Below are positions 13,876-19,535 of a stretch of DNA of 64,000 nt, piece after piece. The DNA lies in contig NZ_JARUXC010000002.1 in the NCBI RefSeq assembly GCF_030433855.1, positions 248,001 to 312,000 on the forward strand. Direction: 5' to 3'. This stretch comes from Agreia sp. PsM10. GTDB lineage: Bacteria; Actinomycetota; Actinomycetes; Actinomycetales; Microbacteriaceae. A program made the position numbers and the translations under genes. Within the stretch, counting starts at the first letter, position 1. Every line of letters begins with the position of its first letter. Below the pieces are notes generated by a model. The model was not told where the DNA came from. It saw only the letters and a list, made by a program, of their open reading frames with translations, and made no database searches.

Positions 13876-14082
13876 ATGCTGGAATTCAAGGGCGAGAAGC
13901 TCGAACAGGTCTGGGTCGGCAACGAGCACGTGGCGAACATCCGGGAGGCCTCGGGCCACGGCGAGGGCCCGTTCATCATCGAGACGGTCGACGGGGTCGA
14001 GATCCATCAGGCGGCAGACCTGCACCTCGCCGAGCTCTGGGTGGCGCAGCACTCCGACGACATCCTGGGCCGCCCGAACTGA
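13876..14082 (+). CDS. Small conserved-looking hypothetical protein
   Basis: 68 residues, acidic, no membrane segment: begins MLEFKGEKLEQVWVGNEH and has IETVDGVEIHQAADLHLAELW. It starts 9 bp after the PH-domain gene, with codon use typical of the window, so it is probably real. I do not recognise the family. The next 144 bp hold only a triple repeat before purK. Confidence 0.55.
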   Translation: MLEFKGEKLEQVWVGNEHVANIREASGHGEGPFIIETVDGVEIHQAADLHLAELWVAQHSDDILGRPN

Positions 14083-14107
14083 GCCTGACGCCCGACCCGA
14101 CCCGGCC

Positions 14108-14197
14108 GTTCCCTGAGCCTGTCGAAGGGACCGACCCGCCCGTTCCCTGAGCCTGTCGAAGGGACCGACCCGCCCGTTCCCTGAGCCTGTCGAAGGG
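14108..14197. repeat. Three direct copies of the intergenic palindromic repeat, period 34 bp
   Basis: Identical 22-nt units at 14108-14129, 14142-14163 and 14176-14197 (core TTCCCTGAGCCTGTCGAAGG), separated by identical 12-nt spacers ACCGACCCGCCC. Unlike copies near 2 kb and 10.5 kb they are in the same orientation, so no single hairpin forms between units. They sit between a hypothetical gene and purK, both on the + strand. Confidence 0.85.
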
Positions 14198-14226
14198 ATC
14201 AACAGCGAATTCGTTAAGCTGTACGG

Positions 14227-15363
14227 GTGGACTATCGCGTAGGTGTTATCGGTGGCGGTCAGCTGGCTCGAATGATGATTCCCGCGGCGGTGAACCTCGG
14301 TCTCGACCTCAGAGTGCTCGCCGAGAACGAGGGGTCGTCGGCGGCACTCGCCGCCAGCGAGGTGGGAGACTACCTCGATCGCGACACCGTGCTGGCATTC
14401 GCCGAGACCGTCGATGTGGTCACCTTCGATCACGAACACGTTCCCCAGCCGATACTGCGCGCGCTCGTCGAGGCGGGCCATGCCGTGCACCCCGGACCAG
14501 ACGCCCTGCTCTACGCGCAGGACAAGATCCTCATGCGCGAGAAGCTCGAGCAGCTGGGCGTGCCGGTTCCGATCTGGGCCGCCGTCTCCGACGCAGACGA
14601 GCTGGCCGCGTTCATCGCCGACAACGGCGGGCACGCGGTGGTGAAGACTCCTCGCGGCGGCTACGACGGCAAGGGGGTGCGTGTCGTGACGCACGCCGAC
14701 GAGGTGGCCGACTGGTTCGTCGCCCTCGCCGAAGACGGCAACGGGGGAGCGCTACTCGCCGAGGAGCGGGTCGACTTCAGCCGCGAACTGGCGCAGATGG
14801 TGGCGCGCCGACCGTCGGGGGACATGCAGCTCTGGCCGGTCGTCGAGTCCATCCAGCGCGACGGCGTGTGCGCCGAGGTCATCGCACCGGCGCCGCGCAG
14901 CGCGGGCCGGGTGGCCGACGTGGCCGCCGACATCGCCACCAGCATCGCCGAGGGCCTCGGGGTGACCGGCGTCTTCGCGGTCGAGCTCTTCGAGACCACC
15001 GACGAGCGCCTGCTCGTGAACGAGCTGGCCATGCGCCCGCACAACACGGGCCACTGGTCGATCGACGGATCGACCACGAGCCAGTTCGAACAGCACCTGC
15101 GCGCGGTCCTCGACCTGCCGCTCGGCTCCACCGGATGCCGCGACACCTGGTCGGTCATGGTGAACGTGCTCGGCGGGCCGGCCGAAGGCACCCTGGCAGA
15201 CCGCTATCCGGTGGCCTTCGCAGACCAGCCCACGGTCAAATTCCACAACTACGGCAAGGCGCCTCGACCCGGCCGCAAGGTCGGACACGTCACCGCCGGC
15301 GGCGACGACCTCGACCAGGTCGTGTTCGAGGCGCGTGCCGCAGCGGCTTTCTTCCAGAACTGA
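14227..15363 (+). CDS. purK: 5-(carboxyamino)imidazole ribonucleotide synthase
   Basis: 378 residues. ATP-grasp enzyme converting AIR, bicarbonate and ATP to N5-CAIR in purine synthesis; PurE then isomerises the product. Signatures: VGVIGGGQLARMM at the N terminus, VVTFDHEHVP, KTPRGGYDGKGV and NELAMRPHNTGHWSIDGSTTSQFEQHLRA-type C-terminal block (only part quoted here as NTGHWSID). GTG start at 14227. Its last 31 nt recur almost exactly (29/31) at 17627-17657, upstream of purE. Confidence 0.93.
   Translation: MDYRVGVIGGGQLARMMIPAAVNLGLDLRVLAENEGSSAALAASEVGDYLDRDTVLAFAETVDVVTFDHEHVPQPILRALVEAGHAVHPGPDALLYAQDKILMREKLEQLGVPVPIWAAVSDADELAAFIADNGGHAVVKTPRGGYDGKGVRVVTHADEVADWFVALAEDGNGGALLAEERVDFSRELAQMVARRPSGDMQLWPVVESIQRDGVCAEVIAPAPRSAGRVADVAADIATSIAEGLGVTGVFAVELFETTDERLLVNELAMRPHNTGHWSIDGSTTSQFEQHLRAVLDLPLGSTGCRDTWSVMVNVLGGPAEGTLADRYPVAFADQPTVKFHNYGKAPRPGRKVGHVTAGGDDLDQVVFEARAAAAFFQN
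15333..15363 (+). repeat. purK 3'-end direct repeat, copy 1
   Basis: The last codons of purK, beginning GCGTGCCGCAGCGGCTTTCT and ending in its TGA. Copy 2 at 17627-17657 differs at only two positions. The two copies bracket the sigma/beta-propeller cassette. Confidence 0.85.
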
Positions 15364-15370
15364 GCTCAGA

Positions 15371-16987
15371 TCAGCCGACCGAACGAAGCGTATTCCCCTC
15401 GGTTGCGACGAGCCGTCCTCCTGCGAAGAACAATGAATCGGCAGCCAAGTCTGTTGTCCAGATGACTTCTCCGCTGATCTTGTCGATCGCCGAGACCTGT
15501 CCATCAATCGACCGATAGGCGTATTCGGCGCCGGATGTCTCGTAGCTGATATCCCACGGGGAGAACCCCATCCATGCTCCCGTTGTCAGGTCCACCAGTG
15601 ACGAGGGGCTGCCACCGAAGTTCGTCACCGTCAGCACATCTCCCTGCGCCTCGAACCGAAGTGGGACCGAGGGGTACTCGAGCTTCCAGTCGGCTAGTGC
15701 CGCCTGCCAGATCGTGGAGCCCGTCAGGCCATCGACCAGCGCTACGCCGTTGGCGGAGACGACGACGAATTGACCAGTACCGACCGTGGACCATCGCGGA
15801 CTTCCGGGTATTGCTGCCGAGGTCAGCACCTCGTCCACCTGGGCCAGGCCGGTTTCCGTCCGCGTCCAGAGGGTGTTGCCATCATCGTCCAAGCCTGTCA
15901 GCGTCGATGACCCACCGGCCTCGTCCGGGTTCGATCGAATCGTGTAGCCGGTGAACGGATAGTACTCGAATGGTTCCGGTCGAGCGACGAAGGCGCCTGT
16001 GGCCAGGTCGAGCACCCCGTTCCCGGACTGTTGTGGATCGCCGGCGTAATAGGTCACCTTCGCGTAGCCGATGTCGTTGCCGGAGTCACCGACGTTCACG
16101 CCTGCAGCATCGATCCGGGTGACCCACTGCGCATCGGTCGTGTTAGCCGGGTCGAACCTCTTGACTAAGGAGTACGGGAGGACGTCGCCCTGGTCGTCAC
16201 GCTGTGCGAGGGTGGCGTAGACGTCGCCCGAATCGCCGGGAACGACGGAGACCTTCTTCAGGGTTTCGCCGGGTTCGGCGGGTTGAAATGCCGCTACGGC
16301 TGTGCCTGTCGACAGGTCGAGAACCTCGCGGGGCCCGTTCTCGCTACCGGTCGTGACGACGAGCACTCGTCCGGACGTCCCGAGGACGAGTGCGCGGGCG
16401 TCCGCGGACGAGACGCCGGCCTCGAGATCCCAGTGCCATTCACGACTCCAGACCTGGTCACCGGTTCGTGTATTGACGAGTGTCACAGAGAGGCTCGAGG
16501 TCGACGCGGGCAAGGACTCGGACGTCAAGTCGGCTCCGTGTTCCGGGGCGACCGAGATCAGGGCATAATCCTCCGAGATGTCGATGGATCCGACGAGCTT
16601 TCCCGGTTCTCCCAGACCGGGAGGCTGCAGCGACCAAGTCGGGCCAGTCGGCTGGGTGGCGATGTCCTGGGGGACGATCGGTGCGGTCGCCACTGATATC
16701 CGCGCCGGACTCTCCGTCTCCTGCGCAGGTGGCGTCGTGACAGACGCGGTAGGGGTGGGCGGTGTCGAGACCTCGACACCGGTACTCGGTGCTGGCGCAC
16801 CGAAGAGCGAGTCTCGGTTGAGGGCCAGGGCGGTCGAGCCGGAGGCGACGACGCCCGTGATGATGAGGCCGGCGAGCAGGGCCCGGAGGTGGCTCGTGCG
16901 ACGCTTCGGCTCCGCCTCGACGTTCTCGATGAGAAGGTGCCGGATCGCAGCACTGCGCTGGGGATCGAACTTCGGTGTCTCAGTCAC
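15371..16987 (-). CDS. Single-pass membrane protein with extracytoplasmic PQQ-like beta-propeller, candidate anti-sigma factor
   Basis: 538 residues. Cytoplasmic N terminus of about 50 residues, one transmembrane helix (LLAGLIITGVVASGSTALAL), a Thr/Pro-rich spacer (about residues 75-115), then a long domain with repeated tryptophan-containing blades such as GDQVWSREW, GSTIWQAAL and GEVIWTTDL, the pattern of BamB/PQQ-type propellers. The GTG start at 16987 overlaps the sigma-factor stop (GTGA), so the two are translationally coupled. That coupling and topology suggest an anti-sigma factor or sensor that holds the sigma factor at the membrane; this is inference, as no ZAS zinc-finger motif is seen. 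Confidence 0.7.
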   Translation of the reverse strand: MTETPKFDPQRSAAIRHLLIENVEAEPKRRTSHLRALLAGLIITGVVASGSTALALNRDSLFGAPAPSTGVEVSTPPTPTASVTTPPAQETESPARISVATAPIVPQDIATQPTGPTWSLQPPGLGEPGKLVGSIDISEDYALISVAPEHGADLTSESLPASTSSLSVTLVNTRTGDQVWSREWHWDLEAGVSSADARALVLGTSGRVLVVTTGSENGPREVLDLSTGTAVAAFQPAEPGETLKKVSVVPGDSGDVYATLAQRDDQGDVLPYSLVKRFDPANTTDAQWVTRIDAAGVNVGDSGNDIGYAKVTYYAGDPQQSGNGVLDLATGAFVARPEPFEYYPFTGYTIRSNPDEAGGSSTLTGLDDDGNTLWTRTETGLAQVDEVLTSAAIPGSPRWSTVGTGQFVVVSANGVALVDGLTGSTIWQAALADWKLEYPSVPLRFEAQGDVLTVTNFGGSPSSLVDLTTGAWMGFSPWDISYETSGAEYAYRSIDGQVSAIDKISGEVIWTTDLAADSLFFAGGRLVATEGNTLRSVG

Positions 16988-17580
16988 TTCGCACCTCCCG
17001 AGGTGATTGCGGTTCGTTGTATGTCTTCGGTCGTGAGCGCGGAAAGTCGCTGTTTGGCGCGGGACAAGCGCGACTTGACCGTGCCGACGGGAATCCGGAG
17101 CGCGGCCGCTGCCTCGGCCAGGCTGAACTCTTCGAGCACGCACAGAGTGATGATGTTCTGGTCGTTCGCAGACAGCTGTGCGAATGCGCTGCCGACACTC
17201 CGGCCGCGGCCGGCGGAGTCGATCTCCTCGTCCACCCGATCGAAATCGTGGGCGCCCTCCGGCTCGGCCGGAGGAATGCGATCGATGACCGCCTTGTACC
17301 GTCGCATGCTCCGGACGAAATTGTGCGACACGTTGTTCGTCGTCACGAGCAGCCACCCGATCAGCGTCTCGTTGACGAGCGTCACGATCTTGCGTCGCCG
17401 CCAGAGCTCGAGAAACACCATCGCCGTCACGTCCTCGGCATCATGCGGCGAACGCATGAGTCGCAACGCCTGACCGAACACGCGGTCGCGGTGTCTGTCA
17501 TAGAGCATCGCGAACGCCCCGGAATCGCCGCCACGAGCCAGCTCCCAGAGGGCCGGCTCGTTCACTAGTTCTGTGCCCAT
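16984..17580 (-). CDS. ECF-type RNA polymerase sigma factor
   Basis: 198 residues. Region 2: FAMLYDRHRDRVFGQALRLMRSPHDAEDVTA-type segment with D-A-E-D-V and FLELWRRR. Region 4: LSANDQNIITLCVLEEFSLAEAAA followed by VGTVKSRLSRAKQRL, the DNA-binding helix. No extra C-terminal domain. It lies upstream of and overlaps the propeller protein. A GGAACC box 29 bp upstream suggests it reads its own promoter. The pair interrupts purK-purE. Confidence 0.88.
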   Translation of the reverse strand: MGTELVNEPALWELARGGDSGAFAMLYDRHRDRVFGQALRLMRSPHDAEDVTAMVFLELWRRRKIVTLVNETLIGWLLVTTNNVSHNFVRSMRRYKAVIDRIPPAEPEGAHDFDRVDEEIDSAGRGRSVGSAFAQLSANDQNIITLCVLEEFSLAEAAAALRIPVGTVKSRLSRAKQRLSALTTEDIQRTAITSGGAK

Positions 17581-17587
17581 ACCTCAT

Positions 17588-17614
17588 AGTGTCCGGTCGG
17601 CTGGAAAAGGTTCC
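17588..17614 (-). promoter_or_regulatory. Probable ECF-type autoregulated promoter of the sigma-factor gene
   Basis: Read on the minus strand, GGAACC at 17614-17609 is a classic ECF -35 box. It is followed after 13-16 nt by CGGACACT (17595-17588), 8 bp before the start codon at 17580. The -35 lies inside a GGAACCTTTTCC palindrome. The very short distance to the ATG implies a nearly leaderless transcript. Confidence 0.55.
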
Positions 17615-17626
17615 ATCGCTGCTGGT

Positions 17627-17657
17627 GCGTGCCGCAGCGGCTTTCTTGCAGAAGTGA
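17627..17657 (+). repeat. purK 3'-end direct repeat, copy 2 (orphan purK tail)
   Basis: 31 nt, 29 identical to purK's own 3' end at 15333-15363. In frame it reads a purK-like tail [10 protein letters not shown] then TGA. It is separated from purE by 16 nt, the spacing expected if this was the original purK end before the 2.26 kb cassette arrived. Confidence 0.85.
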
Positions 17658-17673
17658 CCTTTACCATGGGCAA

Positions 17674-18174
17674 ATGCCCGCTCTTATGCCTCTCGTCGGT
17701 GTCGTCATGGGGTCGGATTCCGACTTCTCCGTGATGGCCGACGCCGTCGCCGTGCTCAACGACTTCGGTATTGCCCACGAGGTGCAGGTCGTCTCGGCCC
17801 ACCGCACACCCGAAAAGATGATCGACTACGGACGCACAGCCCGTGAGCGCGGGCTCAAGGTGATCATCGCCGGCGCCGGCGGCGCCGCCCACCTTCCAGG
17901 AATGCTCGCCGCCGTCACGACCCTCCCCGTCGTCGGCGTGCCCGTGCCTCTCTCCCGTCTCGACGGCCTCGATTCGTTGCTGTCCATCGTGCAGATGCCC
18001 GCGGGCATCCCCGTCGCCACCGTGTCGATCGGCGGTGCGAAGAATGCCGGCCTCATCGCCGTGAGCATCCTCTCGACCTTCGACGACACGCTCGCGGGCA
18101 AGCTCGGCGACTATCGCGAAGAGCTCACCGCCGTTGTCGAACAGAAGAACCAGGACCTGCAAGCGCGCCTATGA
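17674..18174 (+). CDS. purE: 5-(carboxyamino)imidazole ribonucleotide mutase
   Basis: 166 residues, class I PurE: converts N5-CAIR to CAIR. Signatures: [23 protein letters not shown] and [13 protein letters not shown] forming the active site, and [23 protein letters not shown] 17674 is preferred because it leaves the orphan purK tail outside; ATG 17686 is also possible. It overlaps the LCP gene by 4 bp (ATGA). Confidence 0.93.
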
Positions 18175-19535
18175 CCACTGTCAACGCACCCATCCGCTAT
18201 CCGGATGTGGCCTCTCCCAAAGTCATGACCGCCCGAGCCTGGGTGCTGGTCGTGTTGAACTTCGTGCTGCCCGGCTCCGCCCAGGTGCTGGCCGGCAGCA
18301 GGCGCCTCGGCCGCTTCGGCCTGGCCTGCACGCTCGGCCTGGTGGGACTCGCCATCGTGGCGGGCCTGGTCTATCTCATCTGGCCCCAGGTCATCTTCTC
18401 GATCTTCACGAACGAGTGGAGCTTGTGGGCGGTGCAGATCCTGCTCGTCGCCTATGCCGTGCTGTGGGTGATCCTCGCCCTCGACACCCTGCGCCTGGTG
18501 CGTCTTGTGCGTACGCGGCCGAAGGCACGCGGCTGGATCGCGGCCTTCACCACCGTGCTGCTCGTGCTCTTCGCCGGAGGCGCGGGCTACGGCGCCTACC
18601 TCGTGAACGTGACCCGCGACACCGTGGCCTCGATCTTCGCGGTCCAGGCGAATGCCGAGCCTCCCGTCGACGGCCGCTACAACATCCTTCTTCTCGGCGG
18701 TGACGCCGGTGCCGATCGCGACGGCCTGCGCCCCGACAGCATCACCGTCGTCAGCATCGAGGCCGACACGGGCCGGGCCACGATGATCGGTGTTCCGCGC
18801 GACCTGCAGCAGGTGCCGTTCCCCGAGGGATCGCCGCTCATCGGCTCCGACTTCGATGAGAACGGCACGGGCGTCTACGACTGCGGCTCCGATTGCCAGA
18901 TCAGCTTCCTGTACCCCCGCGTCGAGGCCTACGACGAATACCGGGCGCTCTATCCGAACGCGGAGGCAGAGGGGTCGAGCCCGGGTATCGAGGCCACGAA
19001 AGACGCGGTCGAAGGGGCGCTCGGCATCACCATCCAGTACTACGTGCTTATCGACATGCAGGGCTTCGCTCAGCTCATCGACGCCCTCGGCGGCGTCGAC
19101 ATCAACGTCACCGAGCGCCTGCCCATCGGCGGCGACGAGAACCTCGAGCAGGTCGAGGGCTGGATCGAGCCCGGCCTGCAGCACATGGATGGAACGACGG
19201 CGCTCTGGTACGCCCGGTCCCGCCACTCCACGAGCGACTACGACCGCATGAGTCGCCAGCGCGAGCTGCAGACGGCCATCCTCACGCAGTTCCAGCCGGC
19301 CAACGTGCTGTCGAAGTTCCAGGGCATCGCCCAGGCCGGCGCCGACGTGGTGAAGACCGACGTGCCGCAGTCGACCCTGGCGTACTTCCTCGACCTCGCG
19401 CTCAAGACGAAAGACCTCCCGATCGACAACGTCGAACTCGTGCCGCCGCTGATCGATCCCGAAGATCCCGACTGGGCCACCGTGAGGCAGTCCGTGACAG
19501 ACGCCCTCGTGCTCAGTTCGTCGAAGACGCAGTAG
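18171..19535 (+). CDS. LytR-CpsA-Psr (LCP) family protein
   Basis: 454 residues. Unusually long N-terminal membrane part with about four helices (residues 22-140) before the extracytoplasmic LCP domain (about 165-400): [32 protein letters not shown], and [32 protein letters not shown]. The Arg and Asp residues that bind pyrophosphate lipid are present. LCP enzymes transfer polyprenyl-pyrophosphate-linked glycans to peptidoglycan, which fits the polysaccharide locus downstream. Coupled to purE by a 4-bp overlap. Confidence 0.9.

Follow-up and report, generated by a model that had tools for sequence, protein, structure and literature searches.

A purK-like tail before purE in Agreia sp. PsM10, probably a promoter element retained behind an inserted sigma factor/propeller cassette

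Genomic islands are known to integrate in the 3' ends of genes with att direct repeats. A similar picture is seen at the purK-purE junction of Agreia sp. PsM10, within a window of 64,000 nucleotides (nt; the whole stretch of DNA analyzed, positions 248,001 to 312,000 of contig NZ_JARUXC010000002.1): purK is complete, and its 3' end (tail 1) is repeated as tail 2 on the far side of a cassette that encodes an extracytoplasmic function (ECF) sigma factor and a propeller protein, shortly before purE. Unlike such islands, the inserts considered here are single modules of 1.5 to 2.3 kb, the cassette holds no recombinase gene, and the length of the repeat varies; the terminal inverted repeats of transposons are likewise absent at the cassette ends. 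Comparison with related genomes suggests that tail 2 is probably an element of the purE promoter which was embedded in the purK end, and that this remnant was retained when the cassette entered behind purK.

Several other described systems resemble parts of this locus. Leaderless genes of Actinobacteria are reported to carry a TANNNT -10 box whose first T lies about 12 nt before the start codon (PMC3160421), and purE has the same arrangement; what would set purE apart from the genes described there is a promoter whose upstream part falls within the coding end of the gene before it and was copied upon the split, a picture drawn here from sequence. Homology-facilitated illegitimate recombination has been reported in other bacteria (PMC6382021), and a homologous anchor combined with an illegitimate joint would give the geometry that we see, which is what points to it here. 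The cassette itself is like pairs of ECF sigma factors and membrane anti-sigma factors in its sigma regions 2 and 4, its overlapping downstream membrane-protein gene and its GGAAC-type motif. Its partner protein, however, has a short N-terminal helix segment followed by a propeller or, in related modules, another ectodomain, and has no Pfam anti-sigma match. In ECF57, as described in PMC8999054, WD40-like repeats are fused to the sigma factor, whereas the propeller is a separate protein here.

The purK tail and the purE promoter

The features that bear on the purE promoter, all on the plus strand, are as follows.

14227 to 15363, plus strand: purK, intact, 378 amino acids (aa), its last 31 to 34 nt forming tail 1; supported by the open reading frame (ORF), by Pfam ATP-grasp/PurK_C and by cassette-free relatives with a single tail.
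15333 to 15363, plus strand: tail 1, the purK 3' end including the stop codon (15361 to 15363); identical to the tails of genomes G001, G002 and G003.
17627 to 17657, plus strand: tail 2, purK-like, which we propose as the upstream part (-47 to -17) of the purE promoter.
17662 to 17667, plus strand: proposed purE -10 box TACCAT, 6 nt before the ATG.
17674 to 18174, plus strand: purE, 166 aa, with its ATG at 17674 to 17676; supported by the ORF, by Pfam AIRC and by NCBIfam purE above cut-off.

The two tails are identical at 29 of 31 nt, or at 33 of 37 when extended (15330 to 15366 against 17624 to 17660), and tail 2 ends 16 nt before the purE ATG. A search of both strands of the window for 31-mers that match the purK tail at 21 or more positions gave only the tail itself and tail 2, and a degenerate pattern of the tail (up to two mismatches) matched the genome of this strain only at the purK and purE tails, with one match for the reversed control. 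The repeat on which the sequence-only reading of this DNA was built is thus real and far above chance. An alternative purE start at the GTG at 17629 was rejected, for the in-frame extension is not kept in relatives (a stop in G006; GTG-CCG-TAG in genus g2).

We extended the comparison to the eight genomes of the genus in the search and to a family sample of 398 genomes. At 72 of 76 purE loci, a TANNNT box stands 6 to 7 nt before an in-frame purE start, in a search that was permissive in allowing either spacing and any in-frame start; this points to a leaderless purE start, and purE indeed looks leaderless. The region upstream of the box was scored at a fixed offset with a profile of 16 adjacent purK tails, from which the genus itself had been left out. 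Among loci where purK and purE are separated, 20 of 36 carry a purK-like tail at p<1.5e-3, the null of the position weight matrix including the scored loci and having its floor at about 1e-5. One further locus, G035, scores p=0.022 despite a visible tail copy, which sits at a shifted offset. In genus g2, purK lies 8.7 to 22 kb from purE in five genomes and AGCGTGCCGTAG is invariant before purE in all five, its immediate left flank being poorly conserved; the corresponding pattern has one match per genome, before purE, in each of the five (reversed control, one match in one of the five). Similar elements stand before purE in Microbacterium loci and in G035 and G076. No regulon was found: the degenerate tail pattern is restricted to purK and purE in the strain's own genome, and the g2 pattern to purE. 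Nor did we find a description of such a purE element in the open-licence literature, which mostly leaves subscription journals outside its coverage.

The purK side points the same way. Of the 76 loci, 28 are adjacent, with the purK stop 0 to 7 nt before the -10 box (19 genera), and 42 are separated by at least 30 nt (20 genera); the six left out comprise four without a -10 box and two with overlapping genes. In 23 of the 28 adjacent loci the stop lies exactly 4 nt before the box. With 24 of 28 adjacent and 39 of 42 separated loci anchored for codon counts, the second residue (Arg-2) of the ARAAAA end is encoded by CGT in 13/24 adjacent genomes, compared with 3/54 upstream Arg codons, and Ala-4 by GCA or GCT in 18/23, compared with 6/42 upstream Ala codons and with 8/37 at Ala-4 in separated genomes. 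A leave-one-genus-out codon score, for which a looser anchor admitted 26 of 28 adjacent and 41 of 42 separated loci, was 0.66 for adjacent loci (17 genera) and 0.39 for separated ones (19 genera; p=4e-5). CGT is still raised in separated tails (9/38 versus 3/89), as shared ancestry would give. It seems that the purK tail keeps unusual synonymous codons as long as it adjoins purE and that these codons relax after separation. A donor tract along purK gave a weak signal.

Distances between the two genes were tallied in 107 of the 398 genomes, among the matches listed, with the purE start approximate, and the tally was relied on for large gaps only. Wide separations are found in genera g2 (8.7 to 22 kb) and g51 (about 17 kb), represented by L174 to L181. 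In 9 of the 107 genomes (L182 to L185 and others, among the matches listed), purK and purE lie on opposite strands of one contig.

Occupied and empty junctions

The 2263 nt that separate the tails contain two genes on the minus strand, which overlap and encode the ECF sigma factor and a PQQ/BamB-like protein.

15371 to 16987, minus strand: propeller protein, 538 aa, membrane-anchored, a proposed anti-sigma factor/sensor; its GTG start overlaps the sigma stop; Pfam PQQ_2.
16984 to 17580, minus strand: ECF sigma factor, 198 aa; Pfam Sigma70_r2 and r4_2, and NCBIfam sigma70-ECF superfamily above cut-off.
17590 to 17595, minus strand: CGGACA, the -10 element of the promoter that serves the sigma operon; 21 of 25 related sigma genes are preceded by the motif in register.
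17609 to 17614, minus strand: -35 element GGAACC of the same promoter, on the same motif basis.

The cassette, with a purK tail on either side, is present in three of the eight genus genomes (G000, G004 and G005). In the other five (G001, G002, G003, G006 and G007) the cassette is missing, the tail is single and purE follows the purK stop after 16 nt, as had been predicted for cassette-free relatives; the cassette with both tails is therefore not common to all relatives. Over 31 nt, the purE-side tail of G005 equals the single tails of G001, G002 and G003. G000 and G004 are sisters, and G005 groups with the cassette-free G002 in three of five gene trees (support 0.91 to 0.97), the purE and LCP trees leaving its position unfixed. 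The sigma genes of G000 and G005 are 83.8% identical, which is within the range of five neighbouring genes (78.0 to 88.2%), so the insertion is not young.

In another genus, g12 (16 genomes), the same junction holds other cargo. Six genomes are empty, the spacing being 4 nt, and in one there is a gap of 60 nt; six carry mutually related proteins (41 to 87% identity; CWB2 by Pfam in the one tested), one a glycosyltransferase gene, and two 255 to 270 nt of other sequence. Genomes with cargo and empty ones are interleaved. G209 (27 nt exact), G322 and G400 clearly have a second purK tail, and G253 has part of one. Visual inspection showed none in G018, G374, G401, G349 and G403; scored at the fixed offset, the first four of these give p values of 0.07, 0.10, 0.03 and 0.009, G403 being outside the scored set. 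In three genomes of other genera (G138, G190 and G216; L164, L165 and L166), purK and purE are separated by genes for multi-pass membrane proteins that look acyltransferase-like on visual inspection, and there is no tail copy.

Duplicated gene ends were also expected at other sites of the module. We fetched 22 module loci outside the purK site, of which 16 could be delimited and were tested with 400-nt flanks; 4 of the 20 module loci of one set, together with L128 and L129, stayed outside this test, and a repeat of it with 2-kb flanks was run without controls. One of the 16 shows such a duplication. At L195 (genome G158, genus g8), a 68-nt direct repeat (62/68) corresponds to the 3' end of the upstream RibD_C gene, and the copy lies beyond the module beside the end of a convergent lipoprotein gene, which means that it is not the promoter of that gene. 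All 11 other g8 genomes have one RibD_C tail, with no sigma module seen within 1.5 kb; the sequence that follows RibD_C varies among them, and no exact empty site emerges from the comparison. The flanking repeat at another locus, L197, is a terminator-like hairpin and not a gene tail.

Competing explanations and a proposed history

The sequence-only reading had the cassette splitting purK from purE and the tail left as a footprint of the insertion. It was partly right: the split and the leftover purK tail agree with the genus comparison, while the tail is best understood as a purE promoter element. If tail 2 were purely the target duplication of a small mobile unit specific for gene 3' ends, its recombinase lost or acting in trans, youth or chance would have to explain why it is kept. 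That two unrelated genes, purK and a RibD_C gene, both show the order of host gene, cargo and tail around related sigma modules would suit such a unit, as would the left edge of the tail, which falls at the same place in g1 and g12. We nevertheless consider a pure footprint unlikely, because a similar tail precedes purE where there is no cassette and purK is distant, because of the age of the insertion given above, and because repeat lengths differ (31 to 37 versus 68 nt) and 15 of 16 other module loci lack a repeat. The related proposal that the module is a mobile unit gains from the RibD_C copy, but it stays unproven, with neither recombinase nor terminal inverted repeat. Chance similarity, which a GC-rich genome might favour and which is possible for the weakest relatives (G262, G062, G033 and G183, whose element scores equal background), is refuted for the window copy and has a negligible share in the explanation, given the match of 29/31, its uniqueness in the window, the uncommon codons (CGT, GCA/GCT) and the 20 separated loci, of 36, whose scores lie far outside the null.

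Tail 2 might also be kept for a reason other than the purE transcription start, such as a longer mRNA that matters for stability, processing or attenuation. The -35 region has no clear TTGACA-like box, as this idea would allow, but we rate it as quite improbable: positions 14000 to 18500 gave no Rfam match at E<=0.5, the purK-tail palindrome GCCGCAGCGGC is not kept in g2, and the position of the TANNNT box indicates a leaderless start. It is very improbable that the cassette owes its position to control of purK or purE by the sigma factor it encodes. Its sigma promoter does stand back to back with purE, with some 10 nt between it and tail 2, yet GGAACC/CGGACA is directed away from purE, related modules occur at many other genes, and the purE element is the same without the cassette.

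Several points weigh against a retained promoter element or against the history built on it. The element is not universal, since p exceeds 0.05 at eight of the 36 separated loci; the loci of the element analysis were hand-picked, about one per genus beyond g1, g2 and g12; and the codon positions compared were chosen after the tails had been seen. At the 15 other delimited module loci, flanking repeats stay below the 95% level of 342 mismatched pairs. In the g12 sisters G209 (cargo) and G396 (empty), the 50 nt past the empty tail match the tail-2 side at 47/50 and the cargo side at 10/50, which fits gain and loss alike. The CWB2 proteins are 41 to 47% identical between deep lineages whose purK genes are 77 to 85% identical, a difference compatible both with descent and with repeated gain.

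On balance we favour, with fair confidence, tail 2 as a purE promoter element once embedded in the purK end. The purE gene of Microbacteriaceae would have a promoter of its own, probably a leaderless one, and where purK and purE adjoin, one DNA stretch would serve as both the purK C terminus and a purE control element (about -50 to -17). An autoregulated cassette of ECF sigma factor and membrane propeller would have entered 3' of purK. It would thus be bordered by the full purK end and, at its other edge, by a remnant of the tail, which was retained because purE needs it. Entry was most likely by recombination anchored in the homologous host gene with an illegitimate joint near its 3' end, an event that places the cargo between the host gene and a copy of its tail. 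At purK-purE such a joint would be tolerated only if it fell upstream of about -50 relative to purE, a restriction that might account for the common left edge with no need of a site-specific enzyme. As a direct repeat, the two tails might allow exact loss of the cargo and restoration of the operon. An old gain followed by exact losses fits the distribution in this genus and the interleaving in g12, but repeated gain may account for it instead.

A wider possibility, which we regard as doubtful, is that the ECF-sigma/sensor modules found in Microbacteriaceae are spreading units, which enter just past the 3' ends of genes and leave behind a copy of the host-gene tail. With two tails in place, exact excision would be built into the locus, and purK-purE would alternate over evolutionary time between an intact operon, in which the purE promoter is embedded, and a split locus with changing envelope-related cargo. 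If the promoter reading is true, one DNA stretch is a protein-coding end and the promoter of its neighbour in many genera of one bacterial family, and independent splits have parted these functions, with visible relaxation of the coding copy afterwards. One could then test directly what embedded promoters cost and how a housekeeping operon survives breakage with its function intact, and a short repeat that flanks an insert could be a regulatory element under selection, more than a scar.

The cassette and related modules

The sigma factor consists of regions 2 and 4 only (Pfam; NCBIfam), and relatives of it (E<=1e-40) were detected in 64 of the 398 family genomes, where their modules adjoin many other genes. 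A GGAAC..CGGA motif, picked after the window had been seen, precedes the start by 33 to 35 nt at 21 of 25 sigma loci and by no more than 110 nt at 24 of them. This supports an autoregulated ECF-type promoter for the sigma operon and agrees with the claim that the operon has its own promoter (GGAACC at 17614 to 17609 and CGGACA at 17595 to 17590, minus strand). The two genes are all that the cassette contains; there is no recombinase among them, and a recombinase in trans was not searched for. A repeat search found no inverted repeat with arms at both cassette ends.

The partner proteins have a common N-terminal segment, a membrane helix and a Pro/Thr linker. A propeller-like ectodomain is common to 13 aligned partners, and five others have no Pfam match for the ectodomain; the sensor part of the modules seems exchangeable. 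Modules L186, L188, L189, L195 and L196 have the same segment, helix and linker with outer domains that lack a Pfam match. The AlphaFold model of the window's propeller protein (mean pLDDT 79.8) shows an N-terminal helix and then an all-beta part, and its best Protein Data Bank matches are BamB chains with low TM-scores. No Pfam anti-sigma family matches the partner protein, and it is the gene order and the conserved N-terminal segment that point to a putative anti-sigma/sensor role.

Compared with its genus-mates (L122 and L123), the propeller protein of the window is 92% (G004) and 85% (G005) identical over the first 60 aligned residues but only 44% and 46% over the whole protein, whereas G004 and G005 share 67% with each other and the sigma factors are 94% and 87% identical; the outer domain (15371 to 16800) of the window strain thus looks like a sensor-domain exchange. 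Immediately 5' of purK, a CCTGAGCCTGTCGAAGGGACC-type repeat is present in three direct copies with 34-nt spacing (14079 to 14203).

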